IMG/VR virus record: IMGVR_UViG_3300033996_000972
Coordinates: 1-21,334 of that record
From: a virus
Strand: one strand, 5' to 3'
Length of the DNA stretch: 21,334 nt
Shown: one piece after another, positions 7,859 through 14,723 of the stretch
Layout: the number at the start of each line of letters is the position of its first letter
How positions within the stretch are numbered: the first letter of the stretch is position 1
Made by a program: the position numbers and the translations under genes
Notes under the pieces: generated by a model
The model's database searches: none
What the model saw: the letters and a program-made list of their open reading frames with translations, nothing else
What the model was told of the DNA's origin: nothing

Positions 7859-8382
7859 AGTTCCAGCCGAACGATTACGTCAGCTACCGCGACCCGAAGC
7901 CTGAGGCGTTGTCAGCGGTGGTGATACGGATGCTGCGCGACCACGACGGACTGACCACCGCCGACGTGGCCGCCAGCATCCGGCGCTCCCCGCACCAGAC
8001 CGGCAACCTGCTCGTGCATCTGGAGAAGCATGGGTGGGTGATGGCGAAGCGAGGGAAGCGCATCGGCTGCGCTGGCAGAGCCGTTCGCACATGGCATCTC
8101 ACCACCCGTGCCAAGCGGGAGCCGTATCAGTCCCGTGCGTACCGAGACACGACCGACGTGGTGAAGGCGCTGCTGGAGACAGGGGCGTACACCCTGTCCG
8201 AAGTGGCGGGGAGTATCGACCGGCCTTATGACACGATCCGCAGCGCGATCCGCCTGCTGCTCAAGCGTGGCATCATCGAACGCTATGACGGACCAGACGG
8301 GGTGACGTATGCGGTGGTGGAGGACGATGGGTGGACCCCGCAGCGGTTCATCTCCAGCCTCCGCGCCAAGGTGCTGGCATGA
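7855..8382 (+). CDS. Tandem winged-helix DNA-binding protein
   Basis: 175 residues. The GTG at 7855 overlaps the previous stop (GTGA); the open frame runs upstream but is out of phase with the gene chain there. Two winged-helix units are visible. The first, about residues 20-85, has HDGLTTADVAASIRRSPHQT, NLLVHLEKHGWV and a basic wing AKRGKRIGCAGRAVRTWHL. The second, about 98-155, has TGAYTLSEVAGSIDRPYDT, IRLLLKRGIIERYDGPDGV and YAVVE. The two units look like copies of one MarR/DprA-like fold. Near the end of the early operon, it may regulate the switch to late transcription, but the target is unknown. Confidence 0.75.
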   Translation: MKFQPNDYVSYRDPKPEALSAVVIRMLRDHDGLTTADVAASIRRSPHQTGNLLVHLEKHGWVMAKRGKRIGCAGRAVRTWHLTTRAKREPYQSRAYRDTTDVVKALLETGAYTLSEVAGSIDRPYDTIRSAIRLLLKRGIIERYDGPDGVTYAVVEDDGWTPQRFISSLRAKVLA

Positions 8383-8693
8383 CGGACCTGCGCCATCCGG
8401 TCTTCCTCTGCCTCCCGAACCACGAGCCACGCCAGATCGGGACCATCAGTGCGCCATCCGACGAGGCGCTGGCTGCCCGTCTGCTGGCCCGATATCCGCT
8501 GCTGCCCCTGCACCATGTCCGCATCGGGGATCGTCCGTTGGCGGGGCTATTACAGGCGCTGGCACCCCCTCCGGTGAAGACACAGACCGAGGGACAGCGC
8601 CAGTGGCAGGAGCGCAAGCGGCGACAGCGACAGGCCGAGCAGTGGCGGCAGCACTGGATCGACAAGGACAACGCCAAACGGCAGCGCCGATAA
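8379..8693 (+). CDS. Hypothetical protein with basic C-terminal helix
   Basis: 104 residues, the last gene of the + strand early block. The ATG at 8379 overlaps the preceding stop. Residues 1-65 form a small mixed domain (HPVFLCLPNHEPRQIG, LLARYPLLPLHHVRIG, LAGLLQALAPPP). Residues about 69-104 are a highly basic, Gln/Arg-rich helix (QRQWQERKRRQRQAEQWRQ) which could bind nucleic acid. The gene ends five bases before a strong hairpin. No family recognised. Confidence 0.72.
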   Translation: MTDLRHPVFLCLPNHEPRQIGTISAPSDEALAARLLARYPLLPLHHVRIGDRPLAGLLQALAPPPVKTQTEGQRQWQERKRRQRQAEQWRQHWIDKDNAKRQRR

Positions 8694-8698
8694 ACAAC

Positions 8699-8732
8699 AA
8701 TCCCCCAGCACCCGAATGGGCACTGGGGGATT
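8699..8732. terminator. Bidirectional terminator hairpin between convergent blocks
   Basis: A perfect 10-bp stem, aatcccccag (8699-8708) with ctgggggatt (8723-8732), encloses a smaller ccc-gaat-ggg hairpin. On the - strand it is followed by a T-rich run (ttgttgttt), a good intrinsic terminator for the leftward cassette. On the + strand it is followed by cttgtctc, weaker but usable for the early operon ending at 8693. The 55 bp from here to the next gene hold nothing else I can identify. Confidence 0.75.
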
Positions 8733-8787: not shown

Positions 8788-10371
8788 TCAGCGCCACCGA
8801 GCGCCAAGGTACTGCGCCAACTTCCGAGCGAGGGCCTTGCCGTGTTCTGCCGTGACCGGCGCACCGAAGTGCCGCGTCATCATGGTCAGCTTGTCGCGGC
8901 GGAAGTCGTCCGAGACGGTGGCAGGGATGACCACCGACCCCACCAGATCGACGCCCTTCCGCCGCCACTCTCCGGCATCGACGTGGCCGTCCATCAGTTC
9001 GCCATCGGTGTAGATCAGCACCGCGTTCGCCCCTTGCATCTCCGCCTGCAGCGCCGTCAGGCTGTCGCGGATGTTCTCGCCCTGCAGGTGGGGGCACAGG
9101 CCAGCCAGCTCCGTGTCAGACAGGGTGGCAGGGAGTTCGCCCAGCATCCCGCCGCCGGTGCCGTACAGCTTGCCGGTGATGTCGCCGCTGCGGAGGAGGC
9201 GGAGCAGGGCGGCGGTGAACAGGCGACCGTGCGACTGCCAGTCCCGCGACATGCTGCCTGAGAAGTCCATCAGCATCACGAGGTGCGGCTTGCCTCCCGT
9301 CTTGCCGTAGTTGCGGAAGACCTGCTCGCTGCGGCTGGCGATGCCGGCGATGTGCAAGCGCGACCCGCTCGACGAGGTGCGCACCGAGTGCTGCGAAGCA
9401 GTGCGAGCGATGATCGTGCGCATCTCTGCCGCGATGGCGTCCGCTTCACGCGGGTCGATGGGCATGGCGCCGGTGTAGGTGCGGAAGCGGGTGAAGGGCA
9501 CCCGCTTGGGCAGCCGCACCGACACCGTGCTGGTGTTCGACGAGTTGCTGGAGACGGTGTGCACGGGGCTGGTCGTGCGCTTGTCGGACATCGCCGTGGC
9601 GCTGCCATCGCTGTCGCCCCCGATGGCATCCCCTGCCATCGTGCCACGGGGCACCGTCTGCGTGCTGCGCCCCCAGCCCTGCGCGTTCCAGTACTCCAGC
9701 CACTCCTGCGCGAGGTCGATCACGGCCCATGTGGTGGCCGCTGTCTTGATGCGGCGAGCGAAGTCTTCGACCTTCTCCTTCCAGTCCTTGGCGTGAGTGC
9801 TGTGATTCGGGTGAGTGTGATCGGTGAACGTGAAGCAGATCTCCGTCTCGTAGGTCACCATGTTGGCCAACGCATGGAGCGGGTTGGTCGCCCGATTGTA
9901 GGGCATGAACTGGTGCCATTCGAACTTGACCTTCTCCGCCTCACGGGCGAGGTGCTCCAGCCGCATGTCCTCCATCAGGTTCACGAGGAGGAACGGGATG
10001 CTCCGCGCCTTGCAGTTGGCCGCGATGGCCGCGAGGTCGCGCTCTGTCACGCGCCCATGCCACGCCTCGTGGCGGAGAATCTGGATGCCGAACAGGGTGG
10101 CTGCCTTGTCGCGGCCTGACTGGCTGCGAACGCCGAGCGCGTTGGGCTTCATGGCCTCGACGAAGCGAGTGCCAAGGCGGATGACATGCACCCCGTTCTG
10201 GAAGCACCATGTGCCCGTCACGCCGCCGTCTGCTTCCGCATTGACTCCGGCGTTGGTGGCGAAGACAAGGGCGTCGAGTGCCTCCCCCTTCCGGCTGGCT
10301 CGCTTGATGCACTGCTTGACAAGCGCGACGGGGGTGAGCGGAGCCTTGGGGGTCTTGATGGTGGTCGTCAT
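8788..10371 (-). CDS. CobT-like VWA protein with N-terminal metallopeptidase-like motif
   Basis: 527 residues. The ATG at 10371 is 14 bp after the ATPase stop and has GGAGATCCCGCC upstream; the frame runs on but lies inside the ATPase gene in another frame. The N-terminal half has HEAWH (101-105), then NLMEDMRLE (131-139), the HExxH plus NxxEDxRxE arrangement of the putative metallopeptidases fused to VWA domains (DUF2201-like). The C-terminal half is a VWA domain with the MIDAS motif DFSGS (369-373), preceded by KPHLVMLM, and IYTDGE (453-458). A Ser/Thr-rich linker (about 250-285) joins them. VWA proteins of this type work with MoxR/CobS-family AAA+ partners, here the adjacent upstream gene. 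Cobalt chelation is unlikely for a phage; the substrate is unknown. Confidence 0.85.
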   Translation of the reverse strand: MTTTIKTPKAPLTPVALVKQCIKRASRKGEALDALVFATNAGVNAEADGGVTGTWCFQNGVHVIRLGTRFVEAMKPNALGVRSQSGRDKAATLFGIQILRHEAWHGRVTERDLAAIAANCKARSIPFLLVNLMEDMRLEHLAREAEKVKFEWHQFMPYNRATNPLHALANMVTYETEICFTFTDHTHPNHSTHAKDWKEKVEDFARRIKTAATTWAVIDLAQEWLEYWNAQGWGRSTQTVPRGTMAGDAIGGDSDGSATAMSDKRTTSPVHTVSSNSSNTSTVSVRLPKRVPFTRFRTYTGAMPIDPREADAIAAEMRTIIARTASQHSVRTSSSGSRLHIAGIASRSEQVFRNYGKTGGKPHLVMLMDFSGSMSRDWQSHGRLFTAALLRLLRSGDITGKLYGTGGGMLGELPATLSDTELAGLCPHLQGENIRDSLTALQAEMQGANAVLIYTDGELMDGHVDAGEWRRKGVDLVGSVVIPATVSDDFRRDKLTMMTRHFGAPVTAEHGKALARKLAQYLGARWR

Positions 10372-10385
10372 GGCGGGATCTCCGG
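10372..10385 (-). promoter_or_regulatory. Repeated leader (ribosome-binding) of the VWA gene
   Basis: On the - strand this 14-bp gap reads CCGGAGATCCCGCC directly before ATG. It is one of five related leaders in the cassette; here it is reduced to the Shine-Dalgarno core, with the stop of the ATPase gene immediately upstream. Confidence 0.65.
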
Positions 10386-11855
10386 TTAGTTGGCGGTGAG
10401 GAGGCAGGTCTTGATGGCATCGACGGCGCTGCTGCAGGACGGGTCCGTCTCGCCGAGGTCGATCGACCAGTGGGCGCACGAGTCGGACACGCGGCTGGCT
10501 ACGTAGGTCAGCACCTCGCTGCCCTTGTCGGACCCTGCCAACTGGCAAGCGCGCTCCAGTGTGCGAATGTCGAGCGGGTACCGCACCGCGTTGCTCGCCA
10601 CGAGCGCACGGCTCATGGACACCGCTGCCGCGTAGCGCTTGCCCACCATGTCGGCTTCGCTGATGCCGTAGCTCTGCGCCACGGTGCTGGCCACGCCCTC
10701 GACGGTGGCGAGATCGAACCCGAAGCGAACCACATCCCAGCGGGACCAGAAGGCTTCCTGCGGGTGGCGAGCGCCGAGGTTGGCCGCTGCGACGATGTGC
10801 AGGTTGGCCACGGGGCATTCGATGGTTTCGAACGCGCCGTTCTCAAAGCGCCGAGTACGCAGCCGGTACACGCGCCCCGTCTGGGTCTTCACGCCCGTCA
10901 GGAACGAGAGCAGCGACTCCTGCGGACGGTCGCCCATGCGCAGCACCTCGTCGAGGAGGAGCAGCACCGTCTGCCCCTGCGAGGCGGCACGAACGGCCTG
11001 TGTCAGCACCCCGTCCACCACTTCGAAGCCTGCGCCCGTCGCGACGGGACCCCCGAGCAGCGTGGCCACCTCGTCGAGGTCATCGGTGCAGCCATGCTCC
11101 AAAAACAGGTCGTACTGCTTGCCGAACTCGCGGATGGTGAAGCTCTTGCCCAGCGAGGGGGGCGCGACGAGCAGCGCATTGGCCGGAGCCTCCTGCCCCA
11201 CCACGTAGCGCTGCTGCAGCGCCGCCATGATTGGGTTGCTGCTGCTGGCCTGTGCCACCGCCAGACGGGCACGAGACTGGGCCACCGCGGGAGACTGCAG
11301 CAACTGGCGCAGCGGTTCGATGGCGTCCTCGACGATGGCGCGCACTGCGGCCTCGTCCACCGTGGCCTTGGGCTGGAGCGCTTGGCGCAGGGTCTCCAGC
11401 GCGTCGGCTACGTCAGGCTGGGTCACCACGGGAGGCTGCGAAGTGGCAGCCTTGGCAGGGGCAATGGCAGCCGCAGACTGAACGTCGCCGGTGGCCGAGG
11501 GCATCGGCTCTCCGGCGAAGCGGGGACGGCCACGCTGGGTGACGAACTTCTCAGCGGGGATGCCACGGGCCAGCGCACACTCGACGTTGCCCATGTCGCG
11601 CCAGATGAACAGCACATCGCTGCTCTGCGCATCGCTGCGAATCACGATGCCATGCTCGCCCCCCTGCAGGGTGATCGGGTAGTCGCCGTTGCAGGTCACC
11701 TCTGCCGTGTCGCCGCTGTACGAGGACAGGTCGAGGGCGGTGCGAGCCTCAAGGGCAGGAGCGGTCTGCACCTTGAGCGACTTGGGGCCAAGCTTGACGC
11801 GGCGACCGAGGTCGAAGACGGTGCCAGTGGGGTACGCAGTCGGGATGAACGGCAT
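10386..11855 (-). CDS. MoxR/CobS-like AAA+ ATPase
   Basis: 489 residues; ATG 11855 has AAGGAG about eight bases upstream. The AAA+ core spans about 205-480. Walker A is NALLVAPPSLGKSFTIREF (Gly236, Lys237, Ser238; the usual first Gly is Ala231), Walker B is LLLLDE (298-303) and sensor 1 is IVAAANLG with Asn359. FWSRWDVVRFGF (369-380) gives the arginine-finger-type region seen in MoxR/CobS proteins. The first 200 residues are an unusual extension: a beta-rich domain (about 1-90) and a Pro/Ala-rich, partly helical linker (about 115-200). The downstream VWA gene, 14 bp away, is the expected partner. Together they would remodel or activate another protein, possibly by a MIDAS-bound metal, but the target is not evident. 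Confidence 0.85.
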   Translation of the reverse strand: MPFIPTAYPTGTVFDLGRRVKLGPKSLKVQTAPALEARTALDLSSYSGDTAEVTCNGDYPITLQGGEHGIVIRSDAQSSDVLFIWRDMGNVECALARGIPAEKFVTQRGRPRFAGEPMPSATGDVQSAAAIAPAKAATSQPPVVTQPDVADALETLRQALQPKATVDEAAVRAIVEDAIEPLRQLLQSPAVAQSRARLAVAQASSSNPIMAALQQRYVVGQEAPANALLVAPPSLGKSFTIREFGKQYDLFLEHGCTDDLDEVATLLGGPVATGAGFEVVDGVLTQAVRAASQGQTVLLLLDEVLRMGDRPQESLLSFLTGVKTQTGRVYRLRTRRFENGAFETIECPVANLHIVAAANLGARHPQEAFWSRWDVVRFGFDLATVEGVASTVAQSYGISEADMVGKRYAAAVSMSRALVASNAVRYPLDIRTLERACQLAGSDKGSEVLTYVASRVSDSCAHWSIDLGETDPSCSSAVDAIKTCLLTAN

Positions 11856-11887
11856 GGGAAAACTCCTTGGCGGGAGGTCTGGTGAGG

Positions 11888-11913
11888 CTGGCCCCGCGTC
11901 GGTGCGGGACCAG
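11888..11913 (-). other. Hairpin in the leader of the ATPase gene
   Basis: ctggccccgc (11888-11897) can pair with gcgggaccag (11904-11913). The only mismatch is a C.A on the + strand but a G.U pair in the - strand RNA, so the structure favours the leftward transcript. There is no U-run after it, so it is more likely a leader structure than a terminator. It lies just downstream of the promoter candidate at 11919-11947. Confidence 0.45.
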
Positions 11914-11918
11914 CATGG

Positions 11919-11947
11919 AACTTATCCAGGTGTCAACAACATGTCAA
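11919..11947 (-). promoter_or_regulatory. Candidate sigma70-type promoter for the ATPase-VWA pair
   Basis: On the - strand, TTGACA (revcomp of 11942-11947; 6/6) is followed 17 bases later by TAAGTT (revcomp of 11919-11924; 3/6). A second TTGACA lies between them. The site sits in the only gap over 100 bp in the cassette, so the ATPase-VWA pair may be transcribed independently of the upstream genes. Confidence 0.45.
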
Positions 11948-11967
11948 CGGCGTTGTCCTGCAACGAC

Positions 11968-12186
11968 TTAGCTCAAGTGCAGCGCCCTGCGAACGATGCG
12001 CATCGCTTCGCTGCGGGTCTTGCGACGGGTGATGCTGCCCGTCTGGATGCCGTGTCTGGCAGAGCGGAACAGCACCGTCACCTCCCACACCTTGGCGAGA
12101 GTGTCGGTGTGCTGCAGCAGGTCAACGCGGAGCGTGGTCTTGCCATTCGGCAGCGGGTACGAGCGGGAGAGCAGAATCGTGTACAT
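11968..12186 (-). CDS. Small basic hypothetical protein of the leftward cassette
   Basis: 72 residues, ATG at 12186, stop TAA at 11968. The sequence (MYTILLSRSYPLPNGKTTLR, DTLAKVWEVTVLFRSARHG, TRRKTRSEAMRIVRRALHL) looks like a small alpha/beta fold with beta-strands then a basic C-terminal helix. The basic tail suggests nucleic-acid or phosphate binding. No family recognised. The repeated leader precedes its start. The ATPase promoter lies after its stop. Confidence 0.68.
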   Translation of the reverse strand: MYTILLSRSYPLPNGKTTLRVDLLQHTDTLAKVWEVTVLFRSARHGIQTGSITRRKTRSEAMRIVRRALHLS

Positions 12187-12213
12187 GGCAGGTCTCTGAG
12201 AGGGTGAGAGAGA
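12187..12213 (-). promoter_or_regulatory. Repeated leader of the 72-residue gene
   Basis: Reads CTCTCTCACCCTCTCAGAGA then CCTGCC-ATG on the - strand. It shares the pyrimidine-rich CTCTCTCACC and the (G/C)AGA-N-CC(C/T)GCC core with the other leaders. The ribosome-binding core is weaker (CAGAGA). Confidence 0.6.
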
Positions 12214-12441
12214 TCAGTGGCGGTCAGTTTCGACAGTGACAGCGCCCTGCTCGTAGAGGGCGAGCCATGTCTTCGCGTCGGCATCGCTGCGCTGGGATAG
12301 CTGCACGATGACACTGCGAATGGCGGAAGCTTCGCTGTAGCAGCTGGTATCCCCATTCGAAGCGAGGAGGCGACCGTCGAGGATGGCGTAGGCGCATTCG
12401 CGCCACCCGTTCCGGCGAGCAGAGAGGCGAGCGGTGGGCAT
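12214..12441 (-). CDS. Small hypothetical protein of the leftward cassette
   Basis: 75 residues. ATG at 12441 is chosen because the shared leader (GGAGAACCCGCC) directly precedes it; the open frame continues upstream without support. The protein starts with a basic segment (MPTARLSARRNGWRECAYAI), then LDGRLLASNGDTSCYSEASA, a helix SVIVQLSQRSDADAKTWLAL and the tail GAVTVETDRH. No family recognised. Its neighbours suggest it belongs to the cassette rather than to the early operon, but nothing tells its function. Confidence 0.68.
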   Translation of the reverse strand: MPTARLSARRNGWRECAYAILDGRLLASNGDTSCYSEASAIRSVIVQLSQRSDADAKTWLALYEQGAVTVETDRH

Positions 12442-12470
12442 GGCGGGTTCTCCGAGAGAGAGGTGAGAGA
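12442..12470 (-). promoter_or_regulatory. Repeated leader of the 75-residue gene
   Basis: On the - strand: CTCTCTCACC, then CTCTCTCTCGGAGAACCCGCC split as CTCTCTCT and CGGAGAACCCGCC, then ATG. This is the clearest copy of the leader. A short hairpin (ggcgcg 12471-12476 with cgcgcc 12486-12491) lies just upstream, after the gp88-family stop; it has no T-run. Confidence 0.65.
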
Positions 12471-12503
12471 GGCGCGACCGAATGCCGCGCCCCAGAGGGA
12501 CGG

Positions 12504-13271
12504 TCAGAGGGAGCCGATCACGAACGAGGTGCGAGCCTTGCGGAGGCGACCCTTCGGGCGCAGCCCGACGATGACGCCCTTCGGGTCGAGGAAGCGCTGG
12601 TCGTGTACATCGCCATCGATCACGGGGAGCGCCGCGAGTGGATGCCACGGGTTGAGATCGCGGAGGAACAGCGGCATGGCCTCAGAGGGAGCGACCTTCA
12701 GCACAGCGGCAACGTTCCACCCAGCGCGGAGCGCTTCGCCGCACGCATCGAGGTTCTCGCCAGAGTACGAGAACGTCAGCGTGTAGTTTTTGGGCAGGTT
12801 CTGGCGCTTCGAGGGCGGAAGCTTCGTGTAGTCGTAGAACGTCACGTCGGCGAACTGTTCGAAGACGTCGCGGATGATGCGCTCCCACGGCACGTCCGAC
12901 GAGCCATTGAGCCGTACGGCAGGGAGCTTGCCGTTCTTGTGGCAGCGCTTGACATGCTTCGCAATGTCACTGACGAGCTGCGCCTTGAACGTGGCGAAGT
13001 CGTCGAAGAACAGCTGCGCTTTCCGAATGCGAGCATCCCGCACCGTGTTCGAGGTGTCGCCACGCTTGACGATGTCAGCGCGGCCAGAGTACAAGCCGAG
13101 ACAGCCGTTGATGCATCCGGCAGAGGCTCCGGCGCAGAGGTTGCCACGACCGGCGAACGTGTGGGGAGCGAGGTACAAGACGGCGGATTCATGCTGCAGG
13201 GTGAGACCGAGTTCGTGAGCGAGCTTGGGAGACGATTCGGCGGCGGTGAGCAGCTGGAACGTGGACGACAT
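12504..13271 (-). CDS. gp88-family phage protein (Cys-cluster, possible radical-SAM-like)
   Basis: 255 residues; ATG 13271 preceded by GGAGAATCCCGCC. The family resemblance to phage 'gene product 88' (PF17338) is strong: LLTAAESSPKLAHEL at the start, APHTFAGRGNLCAGASAGC near 36-53, RIRKAQLFFDD (81-91), RLNGSSDVPWE (120-130), FYDYTK (145-150), LTFSYSGEN (165-173) and VIDGDVHDQRFLDP (217-230), then GVIVGLRPKG. Cys46, Cys53 and Cys57 (C-x6-C-x3-C) resemble the C-x6-C-x2-C of phage Gp37/Gp68 proteins, which are considered radical-SAM-like. Phage proteins of this family lie in accessory regions; activity is not established. Its placement in this cassette beside an AAA+/VWA pair is unusual. Confidence 0.88.
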   Translation of the reverse strand: MSSTFQLLTAAESSPKLAHELGLTLQHESAVLYLAPHTFAGRGNLCAGASAGCINGCLGLYSGRADIVKRGDTSNTVRDARIRKAQLFFDDFATFKAQLVSDIAKHVKRCHKNGKLPAVRLNGSSDVPWERIIRDVFEQFADVTFYDYTKLPPSKRQNLPKNYTLTFSYSGENLDACGEALRAGWNVAAVLKVAPSEAMPLFLRDLNPWHPLAALPVIDGDVHDQRFLDPKGVIVGLRPKGRLRKARTSFVIGSL

Positions 13272-13298
13272 GGCGGGATTCTCCGGGAGAGGGAAGGA
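13272..13298 (-). promoter_or_regulatory. Repeated leader of the gp88-family gene
   Basis: On the - strand: CCTTCCCTCTCCCGGAGAAT then CCCGCC-ATG. The Shine-Dalgarno core is GGAGA. The upstream part is pyrimidine-rich as in the other copies but lacks the exact CTCTCTCAC element. Confidence 0.65.
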
Positions 13299-13463
13299 TC
13301 AGAAACCAGCGAGGAAGACGAGCAGCGCGGCGTGGAGGGTGTATTCGCACTGGTTCGCAGCGGCTTCACACTCGTAGCGCAGAGTGAGGCGGTTCATGCG
13401 GCCAGCGGTGAATTCACGACGGAGAAAGCGGAAGTACGAGAGCTGGGAGCGATTGGAGAGCAT
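13299..13463 (-). CDS. 54-residue protein, first gene of the leftward cassette
   Basis: The frame starts at ATG 13463 and ends at TGA 13299-13301. It encodes 54 residues: a basic N-terminus (MLSNRSQLSYFRFLRREF), then AGRMNRLTLRYECEAAANQC, then a hydrophobic end (LHAALLVFLAGF). It has the cassette leader upstream (GAGGATCACCGCC-ATG) and lies only 27 bp before the gp88-family start, which supports it. The last 12 residues could anchor it to the membrane. No family recognised. Confidence 0.6.
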   Translation of the reverse strand: MLSNRSQLSYFRFLRREFTAGRMNRLTLRYECEAAANQCEYTLHAALLVFLAGF

Positions 13464-13529
13464 GGCGGTGATCCTCGAAAGTGAGAGAGACTGAGAGAGA
13501 CTGCAGAGAGAGACGGCAGAGAGAGACTC
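13464..13529 (-). repeat. Leader with GA-rich direct repeats
   Basis: The + strand carries four copies of GAGAGAGAC followed by T/G (13483, 13493, 13506, 13519; spacing 10, 13, 13). On the - strand this is a pyrimidine-rich leader that leads into GAGGATCACCGCC and the ATG at 13463. It may be a protein- or RNA-binding element, or the source of the CTCTCTCAC elements before the other cassette genes. Confidence 0.6.
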
Positions 13530-13607
13530 TCGCAGGTGGCAAGGCTGTGAGAGAGCCAGAGCGACACGCTGGGGACGGTACCAGTCGGTTCGTGGTGCGC
13601 TCTGGGA

Positions 13608-13623
13608 ACTTGTCAGTTGTCAA
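13608..13623. promoter_or_regulatory. Operator-like repeat, copy 1
   Basis: acttgtcagttgtcaa is 14/16 identical to 13739-13754 (acttggcagctgtcaa). Both contain two half-sites of the T(G/T)NCA type and the reverse complement of TTGACA, so a protein bound here would cover the promoter element. Function is inferred. Confidence 0.45.
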
Positions 13624-13724
13624 ATAGCCGGTGCCATTGGTAGGGACCGTGTTGCGCAGTCACGCTCTCTGGATCGTGCAACGCTTCACAGCGTGGCGTC
13701 CGGCGTCATTCTGTCAACAACAAC

Positions 13725-13754
13725 ATGGTAACCCTCTGACTTGGCAGCTGTCAA
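13725..13754 (-). promoter_or_regulatory. Candidate leftward promoter of the cassette, with operator copy 2
   Basis: On the - strand TTGACA (revcomp of 13749-13754; 6/6) is followed after 18 bases by TACCAT (revcomp of 13725-13730; 4/6). The -35 element lies in the operator-like repeat copy 2 (13739-13754), whose half acttggcagct (13739-13749) has a perfect 11-bp inverted match at 13800-13810 (agctgccaagt). Transcription would reach the 54-residue gene after a leader of about 250 nt. Confidence 0.4.
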
Positions 13755-13921
13755 GGGTAAATATTTCTCCGCTCGCAAGTGCTGAATTCATGCGCACTTA
13801 GCTGCCAAGTGCCAAGGGCCGGGGTGGCGCTGGCCATGCTCCCTTGTGTCAATCGCTGCCACGCTCTGGCGCTGCAGAGTGAGCGCAGGGGGCGCAGAGG
13901 GGACGAGCGCTGACGGGCGCT

Positions 13922-14064
13922 CTCGTGGCGCTCGTGTCGCTCCTACTCGTGCGCGAGTCTGTCACATGGAGACGTGGCGCTGACAGCGTCCGCACACTGT
14001 CGCACGAGTGGCGCACGAGTGAGCGCAGCGCTCTCGGCGCGGCGTCGGCTGGCTCTCGGCGCGG
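13922..14064. repeat. G+C-rich region with CTCGTG/CACGAG repeats
   Basis: CTCGTG occurs at 13922, 13931 and 13946 and its complement CACGAG at 14003 and 14014, inside the direct repeat cgcacgagtg (14001-14010 and 14012-14021). gctctcggcgcgg repeats with a 22-bp period (14030-14042 and 14052-14064). Further CACGAG copies lie at 14211 and 14872 by the terminase genes. Repeated sites just upstream of the small terminase fit a packaging (pac/cos) site or a regulator-binding array; both are inferences. Confidence 0.5.
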
Positions 14065-14159
14065 ATAAGGCGTAGAACGGGCGCGAGGGGGGGGTGTCCC
14101 CCGGAGCGGCGAGCGTCCAGCGATATACCACCTCCACACGGTCAGATCACGCAGTGTAC

Positions 14160-14188
14160 TTGTCAACGATACGTCCCCGACGCATCAT
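14160..14188 (+). promoter_or_regulatory. Candidate promoter of the terminase operon
   Basis: TTGTCA at 14160-14165 (5/6 to the -35 consensus) and CATCAT at 14183-14188 (4/6 to the -10 consensus), spacer 17 bp. It is 34 bp before the small-terminase start, in the only intergenic region that precedes the operon. A phage-specific or middle/late activator may be needed. Confidence 0.4.
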
Positions 14189-14222
14189 GTGGAGGCACGC
14201 AGCACACACACACGAGGACTAC

Positions 14223-14723
14223 ATGTCAACGAAAGCACGGAAGACGCCCGTTGTCGCACAGGATGCGAAGGAGGCGAAGGACGCGGTGATGGAGCAGATC
14301 TTGCAGCGCATGGCGGAGGGCGAGACGGTGTCAGACGCGGTAACCAGCCTGAAGCTGACCGTGACCGCAGGCGCAGTACGGCAGTGGTTCCGGCGCGACG
14401 AAGCGTGGACCCAGCGCTATGAACAGGCGAAGAAGACGCTGGCACAGGCGCTGGCGGAGGAAGCGATCCGGGTAGCGCGGGATAGCACCAATCACTCCAG
14501 CGCGGCAGATCGGTTGCTGATTGACACCCTGAAGTGGGCGGCGTCGAAGGCCAATCCGGCGGAGTATGGGGAGCGCCAGACAGTCGAGCATCAGGGAGCG
14601 CAGACCTTGCAGATCAAGGTCGTGGAGGAAGAAACGCCGGTACGGAACGTCCAGACGCAGAAAGCGCTGGAAGCCGGTGCGATATCACTTCCTGCGCAAC
14701 TTCCCCAGAACATCCTGTCCTAA
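14223..14723 (+). CDS. Terminase small subunit (TerS)
   Basis: 166 residues; ATG 14223 with GAGGAC a few bases upstream. The N-terminal half carries a DNA-binding HTH (MEQILQRMAEGETVSDAVTS, then LTVTAGAVRQWFRRDEAWT), and the central helices (RYEQAKKTLAQALAEEAIRV) fit the oligomerisation core. DRLLIDTLKWAASKANPAEYG followed by ERQTVEHQG is the conserved stretch of the TerS-like family (COG5484-related). It recognises viral DNA and brings it to the large subunit. The large subunit follows after a 161-bp gap with structured DNA. Confidence is high for the role. Confidence 0.88.
   Translation: MSTKARKTPVVAQDAKEAKDAVMEQILQRMAEGETVSDAVTSLKLTVTAGAVRQWFRRDEAWTQRYEQAKKTLAQALAEEAIRVARDSTNHSSAADRLLIDTLKWAASKANPAEYGERQTVEHQGAQTLQIKVVEEETPVRNVQTQKALEAGAISLPAQLPQNILS

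Follow-up and report, generated by a model that had tools for sequence, protein, structure and literature searches.

Pairs of a MoxR-type AAA+ ATPase and a protein with a von Willebrand factor A (VWA) domain are widespread in phages, where their labels vary among chaperones, peptidases, and cobaltochelatase. In the NorQD complex, a finger of the VWA protein inserts into the pore of the ATPase, which uses ATP hydrolysis to remodel a linker of the VWA protein and the client (PMC13036017, PMC9976466). Jumbo phages encode a MoxR protein and a metallopeptidase-vWA protein, for which a role in virion assembly has been proposed with reference to tail development of the archaeal virus ATV (PMC7824862), and the N4 genes gp24 and gp25 are middle core genes that lie near a structural module in RN4-like phages (PMC4193335). 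Here, we analyze a pair of this kind that lies with gp88, a gene of the GP88 family (PF17338), in a block of six leftward open reading frames (ORFs) in virus record IMGVR_UViG_3300033996_000972. The stretch analyzed (hereafter the window) is the complete 21,334-base record, which is probably a phage genome fragment. In the overall reading that we favor, and which we regard as evenly balanced between right and wrong, the block holds two adjacent units, a MoxR-VWA remodeling pair with a virion protein as its client and an operon for GP88, an enzyme made early.

The ATPase gene (10389..11855, minus strand) encodes a 489-residue AAA+ protein of the CbbQ/NorQ/CobS-like branch of MoxR, as judged from its motifs and from hhalign comparisons. 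The motifs are a Walker A sequence (APPSLGKS), a Walker B sequence (LLLLDE), sensor-1 N359, and a putative arginine finger (AFWSR). Across eight homologs, PPSxGK[ST], the DE of the Walker B segment (DExLR), N359, and AFWSR are invariant, and the first Gly of the Walker A motif is replaced by Ala or Ser. A CbbQ/CobS-like set gave the highest hhalign score (86.4, E 1.5e-11, over 140 columns that span the helix-2 region), and other AAA+ clades scored lower (MoxR, 60.6; FtsH, 55.4; ClpB, 50.6, the ClpB control set being a single sequence); because of this ranking, the protein is assigned to the CbbQ/NorQ/CobS branch. By analogy with such proteins, it would form a hexameric ring. A search for this subfamily in 398 Pseudomonadota genomes returned just four weak 35-residue matches.

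The gene for the VWA protein (527 residues; 8791..10371, minus strand) lies directly downstream of the ATPase gene at every locus where the contig reaches far enough. Its product has QILRHEAWH...NLMEDMRLE in the N-terminal region and a C-terminal VWA domain with the metal ion-dependent adhesion site (MIDAS) sequence DFSGSMS. Among seven VWA proteins, six of which are 23-97% identical to that of the window, QxxRHExxH and NLxEDxRxE are invariant, and DxSGSM is found in every complete homolog. The predicted C-terminal fold matches the MIDAS domains of Rea1 (Z 17.5) and MDN1 (Z 17.2) and the VWA domain of NorD from NorQD complexes (Z ∼14); the Rea1 match covers residues 295-527 and so includes the segment that precedes the VWA domain. 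Counting against our interpretation of this protein, its first ∼300 residues are poorly modeled (predicted local distance difference test (pLDDT) mostly <50, from a shallow alignment). Because of this poor model, the metallopeptidase assignment is a motif-level one: the sequence carries a metallopeptidase-like HExxH...EDxRxE motif, that is, an HExxH zinc motif and a putative downstream acidic ligand.

Both proteins score under the Pfam cut-offs, and a PDB sequence search with the ATPase, VWA, and GP88 profiles returned nothing significant. Codon changes among near-identical contigs are 17 synonymous and 4 nonsynonymous in the ATPase gene and 26 and 15, respectively, in the less synonymous VWA gene. 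The initial annotation of this DNA described a MoxR/CobS-like ATPase with a VWA protein bearing a metallopeptidase-like motif, and the motifs, the hhalign ranking, and the fold matches agree with that description. From these results, we consider it very probable that the two proteins are a MoxR-VWA chaperone pair.

The second unit is built around gp88 (12507..13271, minus strand). Its 255-residue product matches PF17338 (E 1.7e-36) over nearly its full length, with 126.7 bits against a gathering cut-off of 24.4, and its three cysteines (C46-X6-C53-X3-C57) are invariant in 68 homologs, as expected from its earlier description as a three-Cys gp88-family protein. That annotation went further and proposed that all six genes form a single module. 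The near-identical contigs L002-L004 keep all six as far as they extend, and co-occurrence of the six was seen only in such contigs. A sister phage, L005 (67% identity in TerL, 72% in the portal, and 61% in the helicase), keeps gp88 (75%), the ATPase gene (55%), and the VWA gene (50%) in unchanged order and opposed orientation; there, ∼2 kb of other ORFs separates gp88 from the ATPase gene, and searches for homologs of the three small ORFs found none. The proposed neighborhood is thus conserved in L005 in the order gp88...ATPase-VWA and is not conserved in its small ORFs, which other ORFs replace. The more distant relatives L028-L033 (∼32-40% ATPase identity) carry the pair without gp88, and none of 45 other gp88-bearing records (0/45), each searched whole, has an ATPase of the window's family. 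Because relatives carry the pair only and GP88 occurs without the pair, the six genes are not one system. We conclude that the pair and gp88, each of which is found alone, are most probably two separable modules and that the small ORFs are local additions.

Each of the two units is preceded by a leader of its own. Upstream of the gp88 unit are a promoter-like site, TTGACA-N18-TACCAT (13725..13754, minus strand), which has a counterpart upstream of gp88 in L005, and, directly before the unit, a pyrimidine-rich CTCTCT leader (13464..13560, minus strand) that is common to L005 (∼7960-8000). The ATPase-VWA leader (11852..11950, minus strand) consists of a promoter-like TTGACA-N17-TAAGTT followed by a hairpin. 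In L005, TTGACW-N17-TAGACT occurs exactly twice without mismatch, upstream of gp88 (TTGACA-N17-TAGACT) and upstream of the ATPase gene (TTGACT-N17-TAGACT), and with up to two mismatches allowed, three matches were found versus 0.39 expected. The site before the ATPase gene in the window is weak (−10 element TAAGTT), which detracts from the case for two units. The leader hairpins of the window (11852-11925, minus strand, 11 bp) and L005 (10770-10838, 12 bp) have loops of 6 and z values of −3.5 and −3.8, respectively; they differ in sequence and are equal in design, each standing right after the promoter-like site and just upstream of the ribosome-binding site (RBS) of the ATPase gene. Because no U-run follows it, this hairpin may be a stabilizer of the mRNA 5′-end. 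Downstream of the VWA gene, between the convergent units, is an intrinsic terminator (8699..8732, minus strand) with a 15-bp stem and a fold z of −7.6. The block therefore does have its own leaders, before the gp88 unit and before the ATPase gene, and its own terminator, as had been claimed.

A single six-gene system could still be argued for, in which the ATPase-VWA pair would activate or load a metal center of GP88, in the manner of NorQD or a chelatase, with the small proteins as accessories. The conservation of strand and order in L005 would fit it, as would the three invariant cysteines of GP88 and the fact that MoxR-VWA pairs typically cooperate in target remodeling and metal insertion (PMC13036017). 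We consider such a system highly improbable given that both gp88 and the pair occur without the other, that there are two promoter-like sites, that the small ORFs are unconserved, and that the association of gp88 with the pair is confined to one phage lineage. It is even harder to credit that, in the lineage of the window, the pair is a dedicated metal-loading or activation machine for a radical S-adenosylmethionine (SAM)-type GP88, and we regard this as extremely improbable.

The position of the pair in phage genomes is informative about its possible client. L030 and L031 carry the pair co-directional with, and upstream of, a gene for a helix-turn-helix (HTH)-like protein and then TerL; L033 has the same order until the contig ends. 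TerL is near the ATPase gene in L029, in divergent orientation, and in the window and L005 the pair cassette diverges from TerS-TerL. The pair adjoins terminase genes in three phage lineages (loci in L029, L030, L031, L033, and the window, 8791-14720), in varying orientation. Because of this position, a phage head, tail, or packaging protein is the likeliest client, and we hold with moderate confidence that the client is a virion-assembly or packaging protein. If the pair works as NorQD, CbbQO, and RavA-ViaA do, its VWA domain would dock onto the ATPase ring, a client would be selected through the MIDAS site and the N-terminal domain, and ATP hydrolysis would remodel it, possibly with cleavage or metal loading. 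Along with the client, complex formation by the pair, protease activity, and the timing of expression are what we infer. Several points weigh against a virion client: a position beside the terminase is circumstantial as to the client, L030-L033 are mutually related, and the pair of the window is opposed to the packaging genes and outside their operon. Furthermore, the layout that the window has in common with its sister phage L005 counts as a single observation and not two.

The same position outside the structural operon, and in the window opposed to it, would be in keeping with a pair that targeted a host protein or a defense system, as a takeover or counter-defense moron, rather than virion proteins. 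One study is said to have found MoxR-vWA modules in conflict systems. The initial annotation had also raised a counter-defense role; PADLOC gave weak single-member matches only, which we read as chance and not as a convincing match, and no effector domain was found. With the recurrent adjacency to terminase genes also against it, a host or defense target is unlikely. The CbbQ/CobS-like branch of the ATPase invites another interpretation, namely that the pair is a phage CobS-CobT that hijacks host CobN to produce cobalamin as auxiliary metabolism, which has been suggested for cyanophages and archaeal tailed viruses; phage pairs with such an architecture have been annotated cobST (PMC8651126). 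The best VWA matches are Rea1 and NorD, however, no cobalamin-linked gene was recognized among the window proteins searched, and for viral CobST the role as a chelatase is an inferred one, so we rate this interpretation as very improbable. A virion protein as the client of a MoxR-VWA pair remains the reading that we prefer.

Tblastn searches with the ATPase, the VWA protein, and distant homologs found no match in 50,697 phage records, and a nucleotide search of the same records likewise found none. One of the relatives that carry the pair without gp88, a 35.4-kb record (L273/L274), is probably close to a complete genome, as its ends are near-identical over ∼242 bases.

The GP88 model is confident (pLDDT 89.3, predicted template modeling score (pTM) 0.85). 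When the model was structurally realigned, the top ten PDB matches were all radical-SAM proteins (Z 5.0-7.2), among them NifB (7.2), ChlB (6.2), BlsE (5.6), spore photoproduct lyase (5.6), TYW1 (5.1), and HydE (5.0), and the matches below them were unrelated barrels (Z 4.8 downward). The three cysteines are placed after strand 1, as in radical-SAM enzymes. The C-terminal strand ends form the catalytic face of radical-SAM-type barrels, and conservation in GP88 averages 2.84 bits at these ends versus 1.74 at the N-terminal ends, a bias reached by 8 of 231 circular shifts. The 68 homologs also strongly conserve RLNG[TS]SD, YDYTK, NYxLTFS, and DGDxxDxRF. These model-based results suggest that GP88 is likely an enzyme with a radical-SAM-like fold, for which iron-sulfur (Fe-S) and SAM chemistry would be expected.

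Other results speak against an enzyme of this type and would suit a barrel-like protein that binds zinc or Fe-S and serves a structural or regulatory function. All Z values of GP88 are <8, a range that the tool calls unspecific, and a Foldseek search of PDB gave no significant match (E >0.1). The Radical_SAM profile (PF04055) is absent from the 25 families listed for 68 GP88 members (E up to 1), and hhalign to radical-SAM sets was only weak, as it was to DUF5131 (p ∼0.05). The Cys motif is CX6CX3C and not the canonical radical-SAM CX3CX2C; because of this spacing and the absence of a sequence-profile match, we do not file GP88 as radical SAM. Set against the unbroken run of radical-SAM proteins at the top of the structural ranking and the gathering of conserved residues at C-terminal strand ends, a non-enzymatic GP88 appears possible yet doubtful. 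That GP88 is instead an unrecognized radical-SAM-type family, with a CX6CX3C motif, that modifies a host or phage molecule in hundreds of phages is a plausible proposal to which we give slightly less than even weight.

GP88 is present in hundreds of viral contigs, from mycobacteriophages to pelagiphages, and PF17338 was mentioned nowhere in the literature searched. In the isolated phages Lo5R7ANS, HTVC115P, and CRP-143, gp88 is gene 2 or 3, and in mycobacteriophages it lies in the right arm, near the immunity repressor; this place among the first genes or in the mycobacteriophage right arm suggests that the probable enzyme is expressed early. At least some of the copies in bacterial genomes have phage genes nearby, for example a gene for a T7-like terminase in Rhizobium anhuiense. 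Clustering of neighboring ORFs around gp88 gave mainly alternative-frame artifacts and no convincing family-wide partner gene, and a search of gp88 records for the PHROG "peptidase" family found no match, although the control likewise found nothing. One contig (L017) has two gp88 paralogs (1930-2628 and 8001-8615). In Tunturi_5 (L024, 7380-8717), a protein with a gp88 domain is annotated "minor head protein," which is probably a misannotation or a fusion.

The three small ORFs, all on the minus strand, are lineage-specific and found in near-identical contigs only: s54 (54 residues, 13302..13463, RBS GAGG), which opens the gp88 unit; s75 (75 residues, 12217..12441); and s72 (72 residues, 11971..12186), which shows 3 synonymous codon changes and 1 nonsynonymous change. 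Because s54 and s75 are invariant among these contigs, RBS and spacing are the only grounds for calling them coding. Homology of s72 to a small ORF of L005, suspected by eye, was not supported (E 0.28).

The six ORFs occupy 8788-13463, with the last stop codon at 8788-8790, and a purine-rich RBS precedes all six starts, of the GGAG/GAGG type in five and GAG only for s72. On the left, the block is flanked by genes for replication that run rightward (a DnaB-type primase/helicase and an exonuclease (phrog_2139)), and to the right are rightward packaging and structural genes (TerS (phrog_1482), TerL, and the portal). The coordinates of the opposed block reported earlier are confirmed. Rfam and NCBIfam searches returned no match. 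GTTGACA-like motifs recur around the TerS start (14148-14232) and are kept in part in L005; they may serve as a late promoter or as an operator.

The recurrent place of the pair beside the terminase in small phage genomes makes a function in virion assembly or packaging directly testable. The GP88 fold provides a concrete structural hypothesis for a family carried by hundreds of phages, among them mycobacteriophages that are genetically tractable, and the possible radical-SAM nature of GP88 is the most interesting remaining point. Within PF17338, the family typified by mycobacteriophage gene 88, gp88 of the window is the second gene of a small operon. Its product may resemble radical-SAM enzymes (NifB, ChlB, BlsE, spore photoproduct lyase, TYW1, and HydE) in its predicted partial barrel. 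By eye, it also shares motifs in the same order with DUF5131/Gp37-Gp68 (PF07505), namely C-x6-C-x2-C, N-x2-SD-x3-E, TK, and N-x2-L-x2-S, and one phage GP88-like protein is annotated Gp37/Gp68-like; hhalign support for this relationship is marginal, as 5 of 100 shuffles were equally good.

The pair, in turn, is a divergent addition to an already known kind of phage chaperone. It resembles NorQ-NorD, CbbQ-CbbO, and RavA-ViaA in having a CbbQ/NorQ-type AAA+ gene beside a VWA gene, an intact MIDAS, and a fold match to NorD, and differs from them in being phage-encoded, in its very low identity, and in the HExxH...EDxRxE motif of its N-terminal region. The best fold match of the VWA protein is the MIDAS domain of midasin/Rea1, whose VWA domain, unlike that of the window, sits on the AAA+ chain itself and acts in ribosome assembly. 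Among phage systems, the PHROG "peptidase" family (phrog_459) matches the pair with an E of 0.2 only. The architecture of an AAA+ gene and a VWA gene is common to "cobST" of cyanophages and archaeal tailed viruses (PMC8651126) and to N4 gp24/gp25 (PMC4193335). It is also that of the group 2.2 jumbo-phage pair, in which a metallopeptidase domain is fused N-terminally to the VWA domain (PMC7824862). Unlike these known phage pairs, the pair of the window is opposed to the terminase and has its own leader hairpin.

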